Shown: positions 11,813 through 19,810 of the stretch, piece after piece
Numbering within the stretch: the first letter of the stretch is position 1
Layout: the number at the start of each line of letters is the position of its first letter
Notes under the pieces: model-generated
The model's input: the letters and a program-made list of their open reading frames with translations, nothing else
What the model was told of the DNA's origin: nothing
Databases searched by the model: none
Origin: an uncultured Clostridia bacterium
GTDB taxonomy: Bacteria; Bacillota; SHA-98; UBA4971
Assembly (NCBI GenBank): GCA_900019985.1
Contig: FIZM01000003.1
Coordinates: 1 to 46,232 of the forward strand
Direction of reading: 5' to 3'
DNA length: 46,232 nucleotides
Position numbers and translations under genes: made by a program

Positions 11813-12265
11813 ATGGTTACTGAAAACTATATGACAATAGAGTTTCCAGCGATTCCCGAGAATGTGGAATTCGCCAGGACAGTGGTTGCATGTTTTGCAT
11901 CGCAAATCTCTTCGTTCACTTTGGAGGAAATAGATGACATTAAGCTGGTAGTGTCAGAAGCCGTCTCCAACACTGTACTACACAGCTACGACACTCCCGG
12001 AGGTATCATACGTCTCACTGCAGCAAGAAACGGTGATACGCTCTATGTCACAGTTGAAGACTTCGGCAAGGGAATAACCGAGATAGAAAAAGCAAAAGAG
12101 CCTGCTTTCACCACAGACCCGGACAGGATGGGTATGGGGTTCACGATAATGGAAGCATTGTCAGATGAGCTCCATGTGACTTCGGTCCCAGGTAAAGGAG
12201 TTAAGGTCGAAATAAGGAAGTCACCTCATGGGACGGCGAAGGCCAGTGAAGAACTGCAGTGCTGA
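11813..12265 (+). CDS. spoIIAB: Anti-sigma F factor SpoIIAB (serine kinase)
   Basis: A 150-residue GHKL-type kinase and anti-sigma factor. N-box EAVSNTVLHSY, G1-like EDFGKGI and G2-like MGMGFTIMEAL are all present. It binds and holds SigF, and phosphorylates SpoIIAA. Gap to spoIIAA is 4 bases; its last 38 bases overlap the sigF gene in another frame, which suggests coupled translation to keep the anti-sigma and sigma factors in ratio. Confidence 0.93.
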   Translation: MVTENYMTIEFPAIPENVEFARTVVACFASQISSFTLEEIDDIKLVVSEAVSNTVLHSYDTPGGIIRLTAARNGDTLYVTVEDFGKGITEIEKAKEPAFTTDPDRMGMGFTIMEALSDELHVTSVPGKGVKVEIRKSPHGTAKASEELQC

Positions 12266-13016
12266 CGGAATCCGCTTGCCTCGGCTGCCTCTTCTCACTG
12301 ACGAAGAGGTTCGCGAACTGAAACAACGTATTCGTGCCGGTTGCGAAGATGCCCGTGATGAACTAGTGTCCCGAAACCTCCGTCTGGTAATGAGCCTTGT
12401 AAACAAGTTCCCCTGTGAACCCGGTGAGAAGGAGGATTTATTCCAGGTCGGTTGTGTCGGCCTCCTGAAAGCCGCTGACCGGTTTGACGAGTCATGTGGA
12501 ACTCGTTTTTCCACGTACGCTGTACCTGTAATCCTCGGTACAATCCGGGAGCACCTCCGCAAAGGAGGAAGGCTCAAAATCGGAAGGACACTTCAGGAAA
12601 AAGCGGTCAAGGTTCAAGAGGCGCTAGGTGTTTTGCGGTCTGAATTAGGAAGGGAGCCGAGCATCCATGAAATCTCTGCAAGAACCGGATTACAGAGTGA
12701 GGAAGTAGTTGAAGCTCAAGGTGTCCTGAAGCCTGTTATATCTCTTTCCGAATCTTGTTCCTCTGACGATACCCTCTCTATCGAAGAAAGAATCCCCTCT
12801 TTCTCCTTTGCAGATGACCGCGTAGAATCGATTGCACTCCAACAAGCCATGGACAACTTAAGTGAGCCTGAACGAACAGTAATAGAGATGCGGTTTTTTC
12901 TCGACTTGAAGCAGGTAGAAGTCGCTCGACGGCTTGGCATTTCTCAGCCGCAAGTCAGCAAGATTGAAAAGAGCGCTCTGAGGCGCCTTAGACAAGAACT
13001 GGACGAGAAGAATTAA
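12228..13016 (+). CDS. sigF: RNA polymerase sigma-F factor (SpoIIAC)
   Basis: A 262-residue sigma-70 family factor of the sporulation SigF/SigG type. Region 2 is visible in RNLRLVMSLVNKF and EDLFQVGCVGLLKAADRFD, with region 2.4 near GTRFSTYAVPVILGTIREHLR. Region 3 lies around PSIHEISARTG and region 4 has the helix-turn-helix VARRLGISQPQVSKIEKSALRRLR. It is the first compartment-specific factor of the forespore. The ATG lies 38 bases inside spoIIAB with an AAGGA site. SigF identity rests mainly on its place after spoIIAB. Confidence 0.92.
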   Translation: MGRRRPVKNCSADGIRLPRLPLLTDEEVRELKQRIRAGCEDARDELVSRNLRLVMSLVNKFPCEPGEKEDLFQVGCVGLLKAADRFDESCGTRFSTYAVPVILGTIREHLRKGGRLKIGRTLQEKAVKVQEALGVLRSELGREPSIHEISARTGLQSEEVVEAQGVLKPVISLSESCSSDDTLSIEERIPSFSFADDRVESIALQQAMDNLSEPERTVIEMRFFLDLKQVEVARRLGISQPQVSKIEKSALRRLRQELDEKN

Positions 13017-13065: not shown

Positions 13066-13272
13066 ATGACAGTAATTAAAGTTGTGGAACTTCTGGGCGA
13101 ATCTACAACAAGCTGGGAACATGCAGTGCAAGAGGCTGTCAATGCAGCATCGAAAACCCTTAGGAATATAACAGGTATCGAAGTATTGAATATGACTGCC
13201 TCCATCGAAAACGGGAAAATCGCGAAATACAAAGCCAATGTAAACGTTGCTTTCACTGTCGACGGTACCTGA
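13066..13272 (+). CDS. Dodecin family flavin-binding protein
   Basis: A 68-residue protein matching dodecin: MTVIKVVELLGESTTSWEHAV, then the helix AVQEAVNAASKTLRNITG, then two beta strands ending in VNVAFTVDG. The W of the flavin-stacking site is present in TSWEHA. Dodecins assemble into hollow 12-mers that store flavins, and in some bacteria CoA. It sits between sigF and spoVAC, so it may be made in the forespore. A strong AAGGAGG precedes the ATG but lies within an inverted repeat. I know of no established sporulation role for dodecin. Confidence 0.88.
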   Translation: MTVIKVVELLGESTTSWEHAVQEAVNAASKTLRNITGIEVLNMTASIENGKIAKYKANVNVAFTVDGT

Positions 13273-13296
13273 TCGGGTAAGGAGATGAAAGCGACG

Positions 13297-13767
13297 ATGT
13301 CTCGGACTTTCCAGGATGCCCAGGAGAAAAAAAGGAAGCAAGAGGCATATCAACAGCTGGTAGCTAAAAGGAAGCCGAAACCTCCATACCTGAGGCATTT
13401 TCTCGTTGCGTTTCTTGTAGGCGGCTCATTATGTGCACTGGGCCAGTTCATCCTAAACATTTTCATGCGGCGGGGAATGGACATGAACGCAGCGTCCGCT
13501 CCTACCCTGGCGGTCATGATTCTTTTTGGCATAGTGTTGACTGCATTAGGGGTCTATGATGAGATCGCTGAATTCGCCGGGGCCGGAGCTGCAGTGCCTA
13601 TCACAGGGTTCGCCAATACCGTTGCTGCCTGCGCCATGGATTTTAAGCGTGAAGGCTGGGTTTTAGGCATGGGTTCTAAGATGTTTGTCATTGCGGGCCC
13701 AGTACTCGTGTACGGCGTTCTAAGCGGTGTATCTGCAGCTTTCATCAAGTACGTTACAGGATTGTAG
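13297..13767 (+). CDS. spoVAC: Stage V sporulation protein AC
   Basis: A ~156-residue integral membrane protein with a basic N-terminal tail (to ~residue 32) and three or four hydrophobic helices. SpoVAC forms the inner-forespore-membrane channel for dipicolinic acid with other SpoVA proteins and is reported to act as a mechanosensitive channel. The text RHFLVAFLVGGSLCALGQF and GAAVPITGFANTVAACAMD is typical. Start choice is uncertain: ATG 13285 touches AAGGAG (13279-13284), while ATG 13297 lies 12 bases after it. First of three spoVA genes; spoVAA, AB and AF are not seen here, as in many clostridia. Confidence 0.92.
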   Translation: MSRTFQDAQEKKRKQEAYQQLVAKRKPKPPYLRHFLVAFLVGGSLCALGQFILNIFMRRGMDMNAASAPTLAVMILFGIVLTALGVYDEIAEFAGAGAAVPITGFANTVAACAMDFKREGWVLGMGSKMFVIAGPVLVYGVLSGVSAAFIKYVTGL

Positions 13768-13788: not shown

Positions 13789-14799
13789 GTGGCACCGAAG
13801 AAGACCGGTAAAGCGACTGTCAAGTTTGGAAACCCTCCTGTGATTATCGGGACAGGCTCTGTAGTAGGACCTATGGAAGGACGAGGCCCCCTTGCCGAAG
13901 ACTTCGATGCAGTCCTCCCTGATATGACGTTCGGCGAAAATACTTCGGAAAAGGCTGAACGTAAACTCCTGGAGCAGGCAGCCTGGATCGCAATAGAACG
14001 GTCAGGCATTGATAAAGGCATGATAGATTACTACGTCGCCGGCGACCTGTTGAATCAAATCATCTCTGCCAGCTTCTCCGCGCGACAGTTAGAGATACCT
14101 TTCATGGGAGTCTACGGTGCATGCTCCACATGTGCCATGGGAACGGCAATGGGGAGCATGATTATTGACGGAGGATTTGCCGACTATGTCCTTGTAGCTT
14201 GCTCAAGTCATTACCACACAGCGGAACGGCAGTTTCGGTATCCGATAGAACTCAATGTTCAGCACAAGGAGACATCTCAATACACTGTGACCGGTGCAGG
14301 CGCTATTGTTCTGGCATCTTCCGGCAGCGGTCCTAAGGTAACCTGGGCTACCACAGGCAAAGTAGTGGACCTGGGAGTTAAGGACCCATACAACTTCGGT
14401 GCAGCTATGGCGCCGGCTGCTTGTGACACACTCCTTGTACATCTGGCTGACACGGGATGTTCACCTGATGAATACGACCTGATTCTAACAGGCGATCTCG
14501 GCATTATCGGGTCTCAGCTTTTTATAGAACTGGCGCAAGAGGCAGGCTGCGACGTAGGGAACAACCACAGGGACTGCGGTCTGATGATCTTTGACAGGAA
14601 GGCTCAACGGGTTGGCGCAGGGGCAAGCGGATGCGCGTGCGCAGCAGTAGTCACTTTTGGACATGTGTTAAAAGAGATGAAGAGGGGCAGCCTCAAGAGA
14701 ATCCTGCTGATTGCTACAGGCGCTTTACTGAGTCCGTTATCTTTTCAGCAAGGAGAGAGCATTCCCGGTATAGGCCATGCCATTGCCATTGAAGTCTAG
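13789..14799 (+). CDS. spoVAD: Stage V sporulation protein AD
   Basis: A 336-residue protein with the thiolase/ketoacyl synthase-like fold of SpoVAD, the soluble SpoVA component that binds dipicolinic acid on the forespore membrane. Landmarks are GTGSVVGPMEGRGPL near the N-terminus, GVYGACSTCAMGTAMG in the middle and DCGLMIFD later. Length matches the Bacillus protein (338). GTG start with only a weak AGGGAA site, so translation may be coupled to spoVAC 21 bases upstream. Confidence 0.94.
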   Translation: MAPKKTGKATVKFGNPPVIIGTGSVVGPMEGRGPLAEDFDAVLPDMTFGENTSEKAERKLLEQAAWIAIERSGIDKGMIDYYVAGDLLNQIISASFSARQLEIPFMGVYGACSTCAMGTAMGSMIIDGGFADYVLVACSSHYHTAERQFRYPIELNVQHKETSQYTVTGAGAIVLASSGSGPKVTWATTGKVVDLGVKDPYNFGAAMAPAACDTLLVHLADTGCSPDEYDLILTGDLGIIGSQLFIELAQEAGCDVGNNHRDCGLMIFDRKAQRVGAGASGCACAAVVTFGHVLKEMKRGSLKRILLIATGALLSPLSFQQGESIPGIGHAIAIEV

Positions 14800-14815: not shown

Positions 14816-15166
14816 GTGGACTACGTTATCGCATTTCTCATAGGAGGACTTATCTGTGGTATAGGTCAGTTAATACTGGATTTCACAAGCCTCACGCCCG
14901 GGCACATGCTTGTATTATTTACAGTCATAGGCGCCCTTCTAGGTGGTTTTGGGCTCTATCAGCCTTTTCTTTCGTTTGCAAAGGCGGGTGCACTTATTCC
15001 CGTTACCGGGTTCGGAGCTTCCATTGCAAAAGGGTCTCTTTTGGAGGCAGAAAAAAGCGGCATCATAGGCTTGTTCACAGGAGCGTTTGAGTTTACCGGA
15101 CAAGGGCTGGCAGTTGCCGTTTTCTTCAGTGCCATCGCTGCCCTCTTTTTCAACCCCCGGTCGTAG
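14816..15166 (+). CDS. spoVAE: Stage V sporulation protein AE (AEb)
   Basis: A 116-residue membrane protein with three hydrophobic helices and the text FLIGGLICGIGQLILD and GALIPVTGFGASIAKGSLLEA, matching the SpoVAEb subunit. It is distantly related to SpoVAC; both share the G-x-x-x-GQ and P-[IV]-TGF pattern. It acts with SpoVAC and SpoVAD in dipicolinic acid uptake and release. GTG start, weak ribosome site, 16 bases after spoVAD. Confidence 0.92.
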   Translation: MDYVIAFLIGGLICGIGQLILDFTSLTPGHMLVLFTVIGALLGGFGLYQPFLSFAKAGALIPVTGFGASIAKGSLLEAEKSGIIGLFTGAFEFTGQGLAVAVFFSAIAALFFNPRS

Positions 15167-15197: not shown

Positions 15198-16187
15198 GTG
15201 AAAGAGACCATAGGGATTCCCAGGGCGCTCCTCTATTATTACTTCTATCCGGCGTGGAGGGCCTTTTTTGAATCCCTTGGCCGGACTTGCCGCGTATCCG
15301 GCAAGACAACTAAGTCAGTAATCGACTCCGGGATTAAGGTCACGGTTGACGAAGCATGTTTACCGGTGAAAGCCTATCACGGCCATGTGATGGCCCTCTC
15401 CGGCGAATGTGACAATGTGTTTGTCCCGAGACTGGTCTCAGTTGAAAGGAAAGCCTACATATGCCCTAAGCTGATGGGTTTGCCTGACATGGTGCGGCAC
15501 AATTGCAGGGATATCAGAGGAATAATCGATCCGTGCATTGACATGAGCAGCAACTCATGGGCATATATCAAAGAGCTCTACGCCACAGGCAGGCTGTTTA
15601 CACGGAATCCGTTGAAGATATTTGCGGCACAGCATAAGGCAAAACAAGCCCATTATGAGTTTGTCAGGCTCCTTCAGGCAGGACTCACACCTATTGACGC
15701 CATGGAAAACGATTTCCGACCATCGCATAATCTCGTGTCCGGACAGGACAAGAGCGTTCGCCGCCCGATCATAGGTGTTGTGGGCCATCCTTATATCATT
15801 TATGACTCGTTTTTAGGAATGAATATCTTGGACAAGCTTAATGTGATGGGTGCGAAAACAGTGACCATGGAGATGTTGCAGCCTACAACCGTCCAGCGAG
15901 AGGCTGAAAAGTGCGGAAAAAAAGTGTTCTGGACCATTGGCAGGCGTTTGCTCGGGGCAGGTTACTACTTTTTGAGGCCCGGAACAGTTGACGGTTGCCT
16001 TCAGGTAAGTGCTTTCGCGTGCGGGCCTGACTCTTTCATTTCCGAGTTCTTGCAGCAGGAATCTGCAAGAAGCAAGCGCAGAGTCCCTTTTATGACTATT
16101 GTTGTTGATGAGCATACGGGAGAAGCAGGTATCCAAACACGCCTAGAGGCTTTTATGGATATCGTTGAAAGGTCTATGGCAAGGTGA
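15198..16187 (+). CDS. Acyl-CoA dehydratase activase-related protein, first subunit-like (DUF2229/COG3580-type)
   Basis: A 329-residue cysteine-containing protein of the group annotated as 2-hydroxyglutaryl-CoA dehydratase activase-related (DUF2229, COG3580-like). Landmarks: IGIPRALLYYYFYP, the cysteine loop DEACLPVKAYHGH, CPKLMGLPD, IIDPCID, FACGPDSFISEF and DEHTGEAGIQTRLEAFMD near the C-terminus. The family is fused to or beside HgdC-type ATPases in many anaerobes; its biochemical role is not established. The recurrent cysteines suggest an iron-sulfur protein. GTG start with AAGGAAGGTG upstream; its stop overlaps the next gene as GTGA. Confidence 0.75.
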   Translation: MKETIGIPRALLYYYFYPAWRAFFESLGRTCRVSGKTTKSVIDSGIKVTVDEACLPVKAYHGHVMALSGECDNVFVPRLVSVERKAYICPKLMGLPDMVRHNCRDIRGIIDPCIDMSSNSWAYIKELYATGRLFTRNPLKIFAAQHKAKQAHYEFVRLLQAGLTPIDAMENDFRPSHNLVSGQDKSVRRPIIGVVGHPYIIYDSFLGMNILDKLNVMGAKTVTMEMLQPTTVQREAEKCGKKVFWTIGRRLLGAGYYFLRPGTVDGCLQVSAFACGPDSFISEFLQQESARSKRRVPFMTIVVDEHTGEAGIQTRLEAFMDIVERSMAR

Positions 16188-17293
16188 AACTGACCTTTGC
16201 GCATCTTGGCGATTATCATATTGCAGTAAAAGCCCTCTTTGAAACCCTGGGAGTTGACGTGGTATTGCCTCCTCCTCCCACAAAACGTACCATGTCCCTG
16301 GGTTCCTTAAACTCTCCTGAATTTGCTTGTCTTCCTTTGAAAATCGGTATTGGGAACTACTTGGAAGCCTTGGAGATGGGCGCTGATACTATTGTCATGG
16401 TAGGCGGCATAGGCCCGTGCCGCCTTGGGCTGTACTGCGAAGTCCAAAGGCAAATCCTTGAGGGGCTCGGCTGTGATTTCAAAATGATTGTTTTAGAGCC
16501 GCCACAAGGCAGGCCTGACCGCTTGTTGCGCCAGGTTCGTGACATCATTGGAGCCCAGCGGATCTCCCGGTTATTTGACGCCCTCCGTCTGACCTGGAGC
16601 AAACTGACTGCCATAGACAGATTGAACAAGATTACTCTCTGCCTTCGTCCGTTTGAGAAGAGGAAAGGTGATATTACACGCGTCTATGAAGCCTCTCTCA
16701 GACGAATAGATGAGGCAGCCTCCCCGAAAGAGGTACAAGCTGCCGCTGGGAACGCACGAGATGCAATGAAATCAGTGTGTAAAACAGAAGGCCGAATCGG
16801 CAAAGCTGAAGATCCACTTGCACCGCGTATCGGTATCGTAGGGGAAGTCTTCATGGTCCTTGAGCCTTTTGCCAACTGTGAAATCGAGAAGCGCTTAGGC
16901 GAGATGGGGGTAATAGTAGATAGGTCGATTTACCTCAGTGACTGGGCAGTGGAGCATGTAATAAAAGACGCCTTCCGTATCTTTCGAAAGTCTAAGCTCC
17001 TTAATGAAATGGCTAAGCCATATCTGTGTCATTTCGTCGGCGGCCACGGAGTGGAAACTATAGGTTCTACAGTAGCCTATGCCAACGAGGGCTTGGACGG
17101 CGTAATCCAAGTAGCCCCGTTTACATGCATGCCTGAAATCATAGCCCAGGATATACTCGCGAAAATCTCAAGAGATCTAGGTATCCCTGCGATGACCCTT
17201 GTTCTGGACGAGCACTCGTCAGATACCGGTGTATTGACCCGCCTTGAGGCTTTTGTCGACATGATCGCAATGTCCAAGTGCCGAAGGAGATGA
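16184..17293 (+). CDS. Acyl-CoA dehydratase activase-related protein, second subunit-like (COG3581-type)
   Basis: A 369-residue protein that shares its plan with the preceding gene product. It has FACLPLKIGIGNYLEALEMG with a cysteine in the same position as DEACLPVK, GPCRLGLYCEVQ, FTCMPEIIAQ and a C-terminal DEHSSDTGVLTRLEAFVDM. It belongs to the COG3581-like branch of the activase-related proteins, and the two probably form a heteromeric iron-sulfur complex. GTG start overlapping the previous stop by four bases. No dehydratase-specific partner (HgdAB) is recognised in the window. Confidence 0.75.
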   Translation: MKLTFAHLGDYHIAVKALFETLGVDVVLPPPPTKRTMSLGSLNSPEFACLPLKIGIGNYLEALEMGADTIVMVGGIGPCRLGLYCEVQRQILEGLGCDFKMIVLEPPQGRPDRLLRQVRDIIGAQRISRLFDALRLTWSKLTAIDRLNKITLCLRPFEKRKGDITRVYEASLRRIDEAASPKEVQAAAGNARDAMKSVCKTEGRIGKAEDPLAPRIGIVGEVFMVLEPFANCEIEKRLGEMGVIVDRSIYLSDWAVEHVIKDAFRIFRKSKLLNEMAKPYLCHFVGGHGVETIGSTVAYANEGLDGVIQVAPFTCMPEIIAQDILAKISRDLGIPAMTLVLDEHSSDTGVLTRLEAFVDMIAMSKCRRR

Positions 17294-17300
17294 ACTCAAA

Positions 17301-18284
17301 GTGGCAGGCTCAGGATATCTGGGAGTCGATGTCGGTTCCGTCAGTACCAACTTAGTCTTGATAGACGATAAAGGGGTGCTGCAAGAAAAGATCTATTTGA
17401 GGACCCAGGGAGACCCCATCGGTGCCGTTAAGGAAGGGATGAAACGTCTCAGAGCTACCTCAGGAAACATTGAAATCCTCGGTGTTGGGACATCCGGGAG
17501 CGGCAGGAGGCTGGCAGGGGTTATTCTAGGGGCTGACTGTATCAAAAACGAAATCACCGCACATGCGGTAGCTGCAAACTACTGGATGCCCGGAGTCCGA
17601 ACAGTTATTGAAATCGGGGGCCAGGATTCAAAGATTATCATCCTCAGGCAAGGAACTGTAATCGACTTTGCCATGAATACAGTGTGTGCAGCAGGCACCG
17701 GATCCTTTTTGGAGCAGCAAGCTGCCAGGTTAGGCATTCCCATAGACCGATTCGGAGAACTTGCCCTCATGGCTCAAAACCCGGTGAGAATAGCAGGACG
17801 ATGTGCAGTCTTTGCAGAGTCAGACATGATACATAAGCAGCAAATGGGACACAAGATTGAAGATATAATTTCAGGCCTATGTGAGGCACTTGTCCGCAAC
17901 TACTTGAATAATGTTGCAAAAGGAAAACCTATTGAGCCACCTGTTGTTTTTCAAGGCGGTGTAGCCGCTAATGCCGGTATGAAGACCGCTTTCGAAAAAG
18001 AGCTGGACACACAAATCATCGTGCCTGAACATTATGATGTGATGGGAGCTTTAGGTGCTGCACTTTTGGCTTGCGAGGCGAAAGAGAGAAGAAACGGGCA
18101 GTCTTCCTTTCGTGGATTTGACGCACTTGACCGGCACTACGCGACGAGAACTCTTGAATGCACCGGCTGTCCCAACCATTGTGAAATTGTAAATATCTCG
18201 ATGGATGATAAGACTATTGCCCGATGGGGGGCAAGATGCACTAGATGGGACAACACGGGAGATGAGCGAAACTGTCTATCTTGA
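17301..18284 (+). CDS. Acyl-CoA dehydratase activase (HgdC/BcrA/BadF-type ASKHA ATPase)
   Basis: A 327-residue ATPase of the HgdC family. The ATP-binding motifs are DVGSVSTNLVLID, GTSGSGRRLAG, EIGGQDSKIIIL and FQGGVAANAGM. C129 (NTVCAAGTG) and C168 (GRCAVFAES) match the two cysteines through which an HgdC dimer holds one [4Fe-4S] cluster. Such proteins use ATP to send a low-potential electron to a dehydratase or reductase. An extra C-terminal segment (~residues 280-327) carries CTGCPNHC and a further cysteine, possibly a second metal site. Third gene of the trio, last before the lysA promoter. Confidence 0.82.
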   Translation: MAGSGYLGVDVGSVSTNLVLIDDKGVLQEKIYLRTQGDPIGAVKEGMKRLRATSGNIEILGVGTSGSGRRLAGVILGADCIKNEITAHAVAANYWMPGVRTVIEIGGQDSKIIILRQGTVIDFAMNTVCAAGTGSFLEQQAARLGIPIDRFGELALMAQNPVRIAGRCAVFAESDMIHKQQMGHKIEDIISGLCEALVRNYLNNVAKGKPIEPPVVFQGGVAANAGMKTAFEKELDTQIIVPEHYDVMGALGAALLACEAKERRNGQSSFRGFDALDRHYATRTLECTGCPNHCEIVNISMDDKTIARWGARCTRWDNTGDERNCLS

Positions 18285-18324: not shown

Positions 18325-18393
18325 CCTAGGCGCAAGACAGAGTGGCGAATGCAGGGAAGACAAACTAAGGTTAATAACAAAATACTCAAAATT

Positions 18394-18425
18394 GCGGACA
18401 GCATTGAAGCAGGTCCGCTGTTTTT
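18394..18425 (+). terminator. Terminator-like hairpin (possible attenuator) in the lysA leader
   Basis: GCGGAC (18394-18399) pairs with GTCCGC (18413-18418), extendable by A-T pairs outward, and is followed by TGTTTTT (18419-18425). It lies between the lysA promoter and the lysA ribosome site at 18431, the place of a transcription attenuator. No lysine riboswitch core is recognised, so what would control it is unknown. A 30-codon frame with three lysine codons (ATG in the leader, stop at 18439-18441) runs through it. Confidence 0.5.
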
Positions 18426-18442
18426 GGATGGGAGAGGCTAAA

Positions 18443-19810
18443 TTGGAGCTACATAGGCATATACAGATTACAGATGACGGGGAATTGGAAATAGGCGGTT
18501 GCCGTGCTACGCGCCTTGCACGAGATTTCGGCACCCCCCTTCACATTATGGACGAAATGACCATGCGGTCTAAATGCAGCGAGATAAAGAGGTCTCTCAG
18601 CAAGCACTTTCCCAGAGTCTTTGTGGCATATGCAAGTAAAGCTTTCTGCACTCTCGCCATGTGTAGATTGGTCCACGAAGAGTTTTTAGGACTGGATGTA
18701 TGTTCAGGGGGAGAGCTCTACACAGCCATTGAGGCGGGGATTCCTCCGGAGAATATCTTGTTTCACGGGAACTGCAAGACTCTTTCGGAAATCGAGATGG
18801 GGGTCAGGGTAGGTGTAGGAAGATTCATCGTGGATAACCTCGATGAGCTTGACCTGCTTTCTGAAATCTCCCGTAGATTCAGGAGAAGAGTGCATGTTCA
18901 GATCCGCCTCAATCCCGGAGTAGAAGCACATACCCATCACTATATACAGACAGGCCTCATAGATTCAAAGTTTGGACTTGGAATAACTGACGGGCAGGCG
19001 ATGAAGGCAGTTGAACGAACTCTCGCCTCAGAGTACCTGGTCCTGGAAGGAGTCCATATCCATATAGGTTCTCAAATACTCGCCGTGGAACCTTACGTGG
19101 TGGCGACTCAGGTCGTTATGGACTTCGTAGGAGATGTGAAAGAGAAATTCGGGTACAGCCTTCGCGAAGTGAACCTCGGGGGAGGATTCGGTGTCAGGTA
19201 CAAATCTACTGATACCCCGTTCTCTTTGGATGAGTATGCGGAAAGGGTCTCCGAGGTGATTCGCGAGTCCTGTCACATCCAACGGTTGGATTTTCCGTCT
19301 ATCATGGTTGAACCGGGGCGTTACATCGTGGGTGAAGCAGGGACTACATTGTACACTGTCCATGCAATTAAGGATATCCCCGGAGTGCGAAAGTACGTCA
19401 TGGTAGACGGGGGAATGTCTGAGAACCCCAGGGTTACCCTGTATCAAGCTGAGTACGAGGCGATCCTGGCGAACAGAGCTTTGGAAGAACCTGTGGTAAC
19501 AGTTACAATTGCAGGGAAGCATTGTGAAGAAGGTGACGTGCTTATCAGCGATGTCGATATGCCAAGGGCTAATCCCGGTGATCTGGTTGCGGTTTTTACT
19601 ACCGGGGCTTACCATTATTCAATGTCCGGCAATTATAACAGGTATCCCAGGCCGGCAGTGATATTTGTCAGGGCAGGGTTAGCTGATGTTGTTGTAGAAA
19701 GAGAGAGTTACGTAAATCTTTTAGCGCGAGACAGGATGCCTGCACGGTTGATGCAAATAGGTGCAAGAAGCAGCGAACCTCATTTACCTGCAGCGGGTAA
19801 TCCGGGCTAA
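18443..19810 (+). CDS. lysA: Diaminopimelate decarboxylase
   Basis: A ~455-residue PLP enzyme (fold-type III) that converts meso-diaminopimelate to lysine, the last lysine step. Motifs: PLP lysine in VAYASKAFC, GGFGVRY, EPGRYIVGEAG, active-site cysteine in HCEEGDVL and the C-terminal GAYHYSMSGNYN. The frame is open to 18392, but TTG 18443 has GGAGAGG 5 bases upstream and gives the normal N-terminus LELHRHIQ. It follows the spoVA region as in Bacillus, where lysA is downstream of spoVAF. A separate promoter and a hairpin suggest control independent of the sporulation genes. Confidence 0.92.
   Translation: MELHRHIQITDDGELEIGGCRATRLARDFGTPLHIMDEMTMRSKCSEIKRSLSKHFPRVFVAYASKAFCTLAMCRLVHEEFLGLDVCSGGELYTAIEAGIPPENILFHGNCKTLSEIEMGVRVGVGRFIVDNLDELDLLSEISRRFRRRVHVQIRLNPGVEAHTHHYIQTGLIDSKFGLGITDGQAMKAVERTLASEYLVLEGVHIHIGSQILAVEPYVVATQVVMDFVGDVKEKFGYSLREVNLGGGFGVRYKSTDTPFSLDEYAERVSEVIRESCHIQRLDFPSIMVEPGRYIVGEAGTTLYTVHAIKDIPGVRKYVMVDGGMSENPRVTLYQAEYEAILANRALEEPVVTVTIAGKHCEEGDVLISDVDMPRANPGDLVAVFTTGAYHYSMSGNYNRYPRPAVIFVRAGLADVVVERESYVNLLARDRMPARLMQIGARSSEPHLPAAGNPG

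Follow-up and report, generated by a model that had tools for sequence, protein, structure and literature searches.

A predicted ATP-driven iron-sulfur reductase kept in the spoIIA-spoVA locus of anaerobic spore-formers

What does a candidate low-potential iron-sulfur machine do in the middle of a sporulation locus? The question is raised by a stretch of 46,232 nucleotides from an uncultured Clostridia bacterium (assembly GCA_900019985.1, contig FIZM01000003.1; hereafter the window), in which three open reading frames (ORF1, ORF2 and ORF3; 15198-18284, forward strand) lie between spoVA and lysA. A first-pass annotation described them as a tight operon directly after spoVAE, and the coordinates confirm this: the genes are real and closely packed on the same strand, ORF1 begins 31 nt after spoVAE, ORF1 and ORF2 overlap by 4 nt, ORF2 and ORF3 are separated by 7 nt, and lysA follows ORF3 after 107 nt. 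Here we argue that the trio very probably has the architecture of a self-contained, ATP-driven two-component iron-sulfur reductase of the DUF2229 branch, because a pair with the predicted component II fold, ORF1-ORF2, is combined with an activase, ORF3. A role of the trio in anaerobic sporulation is likely, judging from gene order and phylogenetic distribution.

The first-pass annotation had seen neither a dehydratase of the HgdAB type nor a reductase of the BcrBC type in the window. This view has to be given up, as the predicted folds and family matches of ORF1 and ORF2 show otherwise. Both proteins pass the cut-off of PF09989/DUF2229 (168.4 bits for ORF1 and 41.1 for ORF2, cut-off 29.4), and ORF2 scores 27.8 or 28.5 bits in two scans for the Pfam family HGD-D, the cut-off of which is 28.4 (ORF1, 14.9). 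Their AlphaFold 2 models, with predicted local distance difference test scores of 94 (ORF1) and 91 (ORF2), have the two-lobed alpha/beta fold with a helical middle domain that defines component II. In the VIA comparison, these models match the double-cubane protein DCCP (7yzm) with Z 16.8 for ORF1 (281 residues, root-mean-square deviation 4.0) and Z 16.6 for ORF2 (295 residues, 4.2), and the chains of HadBC, BzdNO and MbdON with Z 11.9-16.5 (ORF1 against 3o3n_B, Z 16.2); unrelated structures score Z 9.7 or less, and the matches to DCCP, hydroxyisocaproyl-CoA dehydratase (HAD) and class I benzoyl-CoA reductase (BCR) cover nearly the full chain. ORF1 and ORF2 are also homologous to each other (hhalign E 8e-36). 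Against the sequences of the PDB, phmmer with the single ORF1 sequence gave chance matches only, and the sole family relative retrieved by profile is DCCP, which the ORF1 profile reaches at E 4e-4 and 9e-4 via the C-terminal segment bearing the third cysteine, with C275 aligned to a DCCP cysteine; the ORF2 profile finds nothing significant there, the same segment appearing at E 1 only. On the predicted folds, ORF1 and ORF2 are remote members of the HgdAB/BcrBC-type dehydratase/reductase fold family, that is, the partner of the activase.

The cysteines of both subunits follow the ligand layout of this family, with two in the N-terminal part and one in the C-terminal part. Only C54, C89 and C275 are conserved in ORF1 (75 sequences, with a single gap at C89), and only C49, C79 and C315 in ORF2 (80/80 sequences), so that each subunit has exactly three cysteine columns at a conservation of at least 97%, with median spacings of 35/183 in ORF1 and 30/229 in ORF2. 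For comparison, the [4Fe-4S] site of BzdO is given as Cys95, Cys128 and Cys380 in PMC11971306. Because exactly three cysteines are conserved per protein, the pair has the look of one predicted [4Fe-4S] cluster per subunit, as in HAD or BzdO, and not of the DCCP double cubane.

ORF3 was annotated as an HgdC-type ATPase with the cluster cysteines C129 and C168, and this assignment holds: the protein passes TIGR00241 (202 bits, cut-off 125), phmmer against the PDB returns MbdQ (E 9e-40) and HadI (E 7e-39), and both cysteines are invariant in 64/64 sequences. The account of its cysteines was incomplete, since four others, C287-x2-C290-x3-C294-x18-C313, form a C-terminal tail beyond the activase domain and are likewise invariant in 64/64 sequences. 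We know of no description of such a four-cysteine tail for HgdC.

Among known systems, DCCP with its activase DCCP-R (6eno, 7yyl, 7yzm) shares the component II fold and the activase class and is the best structural match of ORF1 and ORF2. However, DCCP is homodimeric and each of its monomers carries a double cubane (PMC11971306), whereas the trio has two different proteins with only three conserved cysteines each. Membership in the DCCP family was considered and rejected: the six-cysteine [8Fe-9S] set is absent, and NF040772 (cut-off 350) gives 15.4 bits for ORF2 and no match for ORF1. Class I BCRs (BzdNOPQ and MbdONPQ) have the fold and the ATP-driven electron activation in common with the trio, and MbdQ is the best PDB match of ORF3; in contrast, BzdN carries a double cubane (PMC11971306), while the trio has no adjacent aromatic-degradation genes and one activase gene instead of two. 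The (R)-2-hydroxyisocaproyl/hydroxyglutaryl-CoA dehydratases HadBC/HgdAB with HadI/HgdC resemble the trio in their two different subunits, ATP-dependent activase and single three-cysteine set per subunit, but the trio differs in HGD-D scores about or below threshold, the absence of adjacent CoA-ester pathway genes, the sporulation locus and the extra four-cysteine tail of ORF3. Finally, a fused DUF2229 protein of ~1000-1490 aa ('CoA-substrate-specific enzyme activase'), which we take to carry activase domains, belongs to the same DUF2229 family as ORF1 and ORF2 but is a single chain.

What ties this machine to sporulation is, in the first place, its position. The order spoIIA-sigF-dodecin-spoVA-trio-lysA is conserved. 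The split trio is found in 16/17 genomes of the class, with the same arrangement in all 16; at 16 trio loci from 15 class genomes besides the window's, spoVAE precedes the trio on the same strand in 16/16, and lysA follows in 14, the contigs of the other two ending there. One genome of the same genus as the window (G008) lacks the split trio and has a fused 1439-aa DUF2229 protein together with SpoVAD. Across the phylum, 82 genomes have both ORF2 and spoVAD among the matches listed. In 53 of these 82 (21 families), ORF2 is on the spoVAD strand and 0-12 kb beyond that gene in the downstream direction; in none (0/82) was it seen in the 12 kb before spoVAD or close by on the other strand. At 80 loci from named organisms, including Natroniella, Orenia, Halonatronum, Thermincola, Carboxydocella, Pelotomaculum, Desulfofundulus, Heliobacterium and Fervidicola, more than 4 kb of upstream sequence is available in 60, of which 54 carry spoIIA/spoVA genes in that stretch; the first 4.5 kb downstream include lysA in 29/56, and 66/80 have either upstream spoIIA/spoVA genes or lysA. 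The gap between spoVAE and ORF1 is filled in the named loci by SpoVAEA and a GerA-like SpoVAF (family scan of L127 only); no more than 150 nt separate SpoVAF from the ORF1 after it in 29/34, and lysA follows ORF3 at a median of 1438 nt where both were found. In B. subtilis, lysA comes directly after spoVAF, and thus the trio would occupy a spot that is empty in Bacillus.

The locus also varies. Dodecin matches occur in 18/20 class or far loci and in 43/80 named loci. Five Desulfotomaculum-/Heliobacterium-type loci (L124, L129, L130, L145 and L175) keep spoIIAB-sigF-spoVAEA-spoVAF-trio, and spoVAC-D-E were not found nearby; four loci (L180, L172, L121 and L133) keep ORF1 and ORF2 with no adjacent ORF3, where the pair may use a distant activase. 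Four trio copies away from spoVA were searched for substrate hints, which were dropped: the neighbours (8/10 sampled proteins gave families) include a LacI-type regulator, a branching enzyme with a nucleotidyl transferase, CbiQ/ABC, PALP and BCCT/PocR and share nothing obvious, which argues that the trio is self-contained.

In the second place, the distribution of the trio follows sporulation. Our sample comprised 398 genomes, 337 with SpoVAD and 61 without (G010 lay outside it); split ORF2 was scored as present at E <1e-60, so that 9 weak matches (1e-22 to 1e-30) count as negative, DpaA at a best E <1e-25, and 4 weak SpoVAD matches (~1e-4) also count as negative. Split ORF2 occurs in 266/337 SpoVAD-positive and 10/61 SpoVAD-negative genomes (odds ratio 19), or, by family majorities, in 86/119 and 4/21 families; equal frequency in non-sporulating anaerobes is thus contradicted. 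The fused DUF2229 form, present in 119/398 genomes, shows the opposite trend (82/337 vs 37/61, odds ratio 0.21). An ORF2 tree was built from at most 48 linked and 7 unlinked of the 80 named loci, from 27 copies in 18 genomes and from the window itself; the other named loci and two G267 fragments were not included. In this tree, the copies linked to spoVA group in a single clade (support 0.849), to which the seven named copies that are unlinked and two additional sporulator copies also belong. Eight of the ORF2-bearing genomes lack both SpoVAD and DpaA and are convincing non-sporulators; all of them fall outside the linked clade, three among the second copies of sporulators. The machine is therefore older and broader than sporulation, yet the paralogue in the window tracks spore-formers, because these eight stay outside.

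Aerobic-type oxidase, traced by COX1, sets some of the trio-less sporulators apart. COX1 was tested in all 71 SpoVAD-positive genomes that lack ORF2 and in 80 of the 266 that have it, a best E of 1e-145 or better counting as strong. Strong COX1 occurs in 26/71 genomes without ORF2 (13 families) vs 0/80 with ORF2. Weaker matches in 9 of these 80 genomes (best 1.6e-87, most ~460-510 aa) look like nitric-oxide-reductase-type relatives.

We propose the following for the trio. A homodimer of ORF3, by analogy with its HgdC relatives, would hold a bridging [4Fe-4S] cluster on C129 and C168, and its four-cysteine tail may hold a further cluster. ATP hydrolysis would drive a low-potential electron into an ORF1-ORF2 heterodimer, in which each subunit would bind one [4Fe-4S] cluster via its three cysteines. 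In anaerobic endospore-formers, one paralogue of this machine would have settled permanently in the spoIIA-spoVA-lysA sporulation locus, where it is most likely co-transcribed with spoVA in the forespore. In C. difficile, spoVA is under sigma-G control, with no genes other than spoVAC-D-E (CD0773-0775) listed for the sigma-G operon (PMC3789822). Most likely, the trio carries out or drives a strongly reducing reaction needed as the spore of an anaerobe forms or revives. Re-reduction of a metal cofactor or radical enzyme damaged by oxygen would be one example; the making of dipicolinate is not the reaction in question. The best explanation of the whole, which we consider reasonably probable, is that the trio is a low-potential reductase of anaerobic spore-formers, driven by ATP and linked to the forespore. 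Of the first-pass guess of a low-potential redox step in sporulation, the tie to sporulation stands on profile, clade and locus, and the dipicolinate part falls. A bolder extension, which we offer tentatively and would not bet on, is that dodecin and the ATP-driven iron-sulfur reductase form a dedicated forespore redox module in the spoIIA-spoVA operon, of ancient origin and lost from spore-formers that respire oxygen, the Bacillus models among them; the step of this module would keep or restore low-potential cofactors for dormancy and revival and would hence never have been seen.

Several observations weigh against the forespore-linked reductase. Among the matches listed, 29/82 genomes carry an ORF2 copy that is not within 12 kb of spoVAD, and apart from the family-majority tally the profile counts ignore kinship. 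The clade support is moderate, and two SpoVAD-negative genomes fall inside the clade, G249, which has DpaA, and G267, which is 63% complete. Five SpoVAD-negative genomes of the families f12 and f64 have retained ORF2; with these outside paralogues in non-sporulators, the machine as such is not sporulation-only. Nor is the trio universal, since 45 SpoVAD-positive genomes, G008 among them, have neither strong COX1 nor ORF2, and so anaerobic life does not force its retention. Upstream of spoVAC, a regular expression found no sigma-G-like promoter in the window or in 9 class loci.

Four other explanations were considered. First, the trio may be a general anaerobic redox enzyme, or one linked to lysine and diaminopimelate, that has retained an old chromosomal position next to spoVA and lysA and does nothing in the spore. 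We regard this as rather unlikely. It draws on lysA as the next gene, on the paralogues in non-sporulators and on the fused relatives, which are commoner in non-sporulators; however, the trio stays with spoIIA/spoVA where lysA is distant or not found nearby, ORF1 keeps close to spoVAF, and the convincing non-sporulators lack the spoVA-linked clade. Second, ORF1 and ORF2 may be a scaffold or cluster carrier with no catalytic cluster, the trio maturing an iron-sulfur cofactor that an enzyme of the spore would use. An activation complex that is driven by ATP and bears complex iron-sulfur clusters is known for MCR (PMC12176620), and ORF1 has weak NifEN fold matches (Foldseek E 2e-3); but these matches are poor (TM-score 0.25 or less), and the three-cysteine pattern is that of the catalytic [4Fe-4S] subunit BzdO, which makes this reading improbable.

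Third, activase and partners could serve a 2-hydroxyacyl-CoA dehydratase elsewhere in the genome, which is 1.83 Mb in size and 90% complete, so that a second dehydratase could be missed. The sole other HGD-D pair found lies on contig C106 and has its own activase 9 nt downstream (TIGR00241, 274.9 bits), and ORF1 and ORF2 already supply the component II fold; we therefore consider this very improbable, and an unlinked dehydratase that clearly needs the trio, which would have spoken against the first-pass guess, was not found. The C106 genes (C106:10831-14067, L005) are a more ordinary dehydratase/reductase-like trio, next to an ABC-transporter-permease-like ORF on the opposite strand, and when the trio profiles were aligned with one of the C106 subunits in hhalign, the probabilities were only 5 and 11%, over the C-terminal part. 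A third BadF-family match, on contig C10, was set aside as an activase candidate, as it presumably encodes a GlcNAc-kinase-like protein followed by nagA, judging from the sequences with no family scan.

Fourth, the trio could replace SpoVFAB in dipicolinate formation, as the first-pass annotation had suggested. The trio adjoins spoVA, DpaA is missing in 15/53 spoVA-linked trio genomes among the matches listed, and ORF2 occurs in 45/50 SpoVAD-positive genomes without DpaA vs 221/287 with it (Fisher p 0.04, uncorrected). Against this, the genome itself has an intact dapB-dpaA-dpaB-asd-aspartokinase cluster on contig C72 (DpaA: NF006162 338 bits, above cut-off, and TIGR02853 309, just under the cut-off of 319.65; DpaB: TIGR02852 259 bits, above cut-off), and DpaA is present in the other 38 of the 53 linked genomes. 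Dipicolinate synthase oxidizes dihydrodipicolinate, whereas activases supply low-potential reductant, so that an enzyme of the trio's kind is unsuited to this reaction. EtfA is the published stand-in (Galperin 2012, PMC3533761). This is the least probable explanation of all and hardly tenable.

The genes of the locus are listed in Table 1. The dodecin gene, between sigF and spoVAC, gives the sporulation locus a second member with a link to redox chemistry, one that the first-pass annotation did not name. No site matching the sigma-G/F consensus turned up near the genes, and a promoter and terminator scan stayed near background (9 vs a mean of 5.8, and 10 vs 5.7).

Table 1. The trio and its neighbours in the window
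Feature	Coordinates	Strand	Assignment and evidence
ORF1	15198..16187	+	329 aa, predicted DUF2229-type component II subunit; PF09989 E 2e-49
ORF2	16184..17293	+	369 aa, predicted DUF2229/HGD-D-type component II subunit; PF09989 E 2e-10, HGD-D E 2e-6
ORF3	17301..18284	+	327 aa, HgdC-type ATP-dependent activase (component I); TIGR00241 202 bits
SpoIIAB-like anti-sigma factor (upstream landmark)	11813..12265	+	named by position and sequence, conserved position, no family scan of the ORF
SigF/SigG-family sporulation sigma factor (sigF by position)	12228..13016	+	NF004052 E 1.5e-64, below curated cut-off
dodecin (flavin-binding)	13066..13272	+	PF07311 E 8.5e-27
spoVAC	13285..13767	+	TIGR02838 164.6 bits, above cut-off
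spoVAD	13789..14799	+	TIGR02845 476 bits, above cut-off
spoVAE (spoVAEB)	14816..15166	+	TIGR02839 131.3 bits, above cut-off
lysA, diaminopimelate decarboxylase (downstream landmark)	18392..19810	+	TIGR01048 457 bits, above cut-off

In the open-access literature searched, we found no report linking the trio, DUF2229 or the COG3580/3581/1924 activases to spoVA or a sporulation locus, and the words 'activase' and 'dehydratase' are absent from the main texts of two C. difficile sigma-factor papers, a C. perfringens transcriptome paper and Galperin 2012. Sporulation is known mainly from Bacillus, and control searches of B. subtilis gave no match to DUF2229. Because the reductase is kept beside sigF/spoVA in at least 21 families and split ORF2 was not found in the aerobic spore-formers tested, our results suggest that the spores of anaerobes depend on a reductive step that is missing from the textbook account of sporulation. 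This turns an uncharacterised 'activase-related' family into a testable question about sporulation and offers a possible function class for DUF2229.

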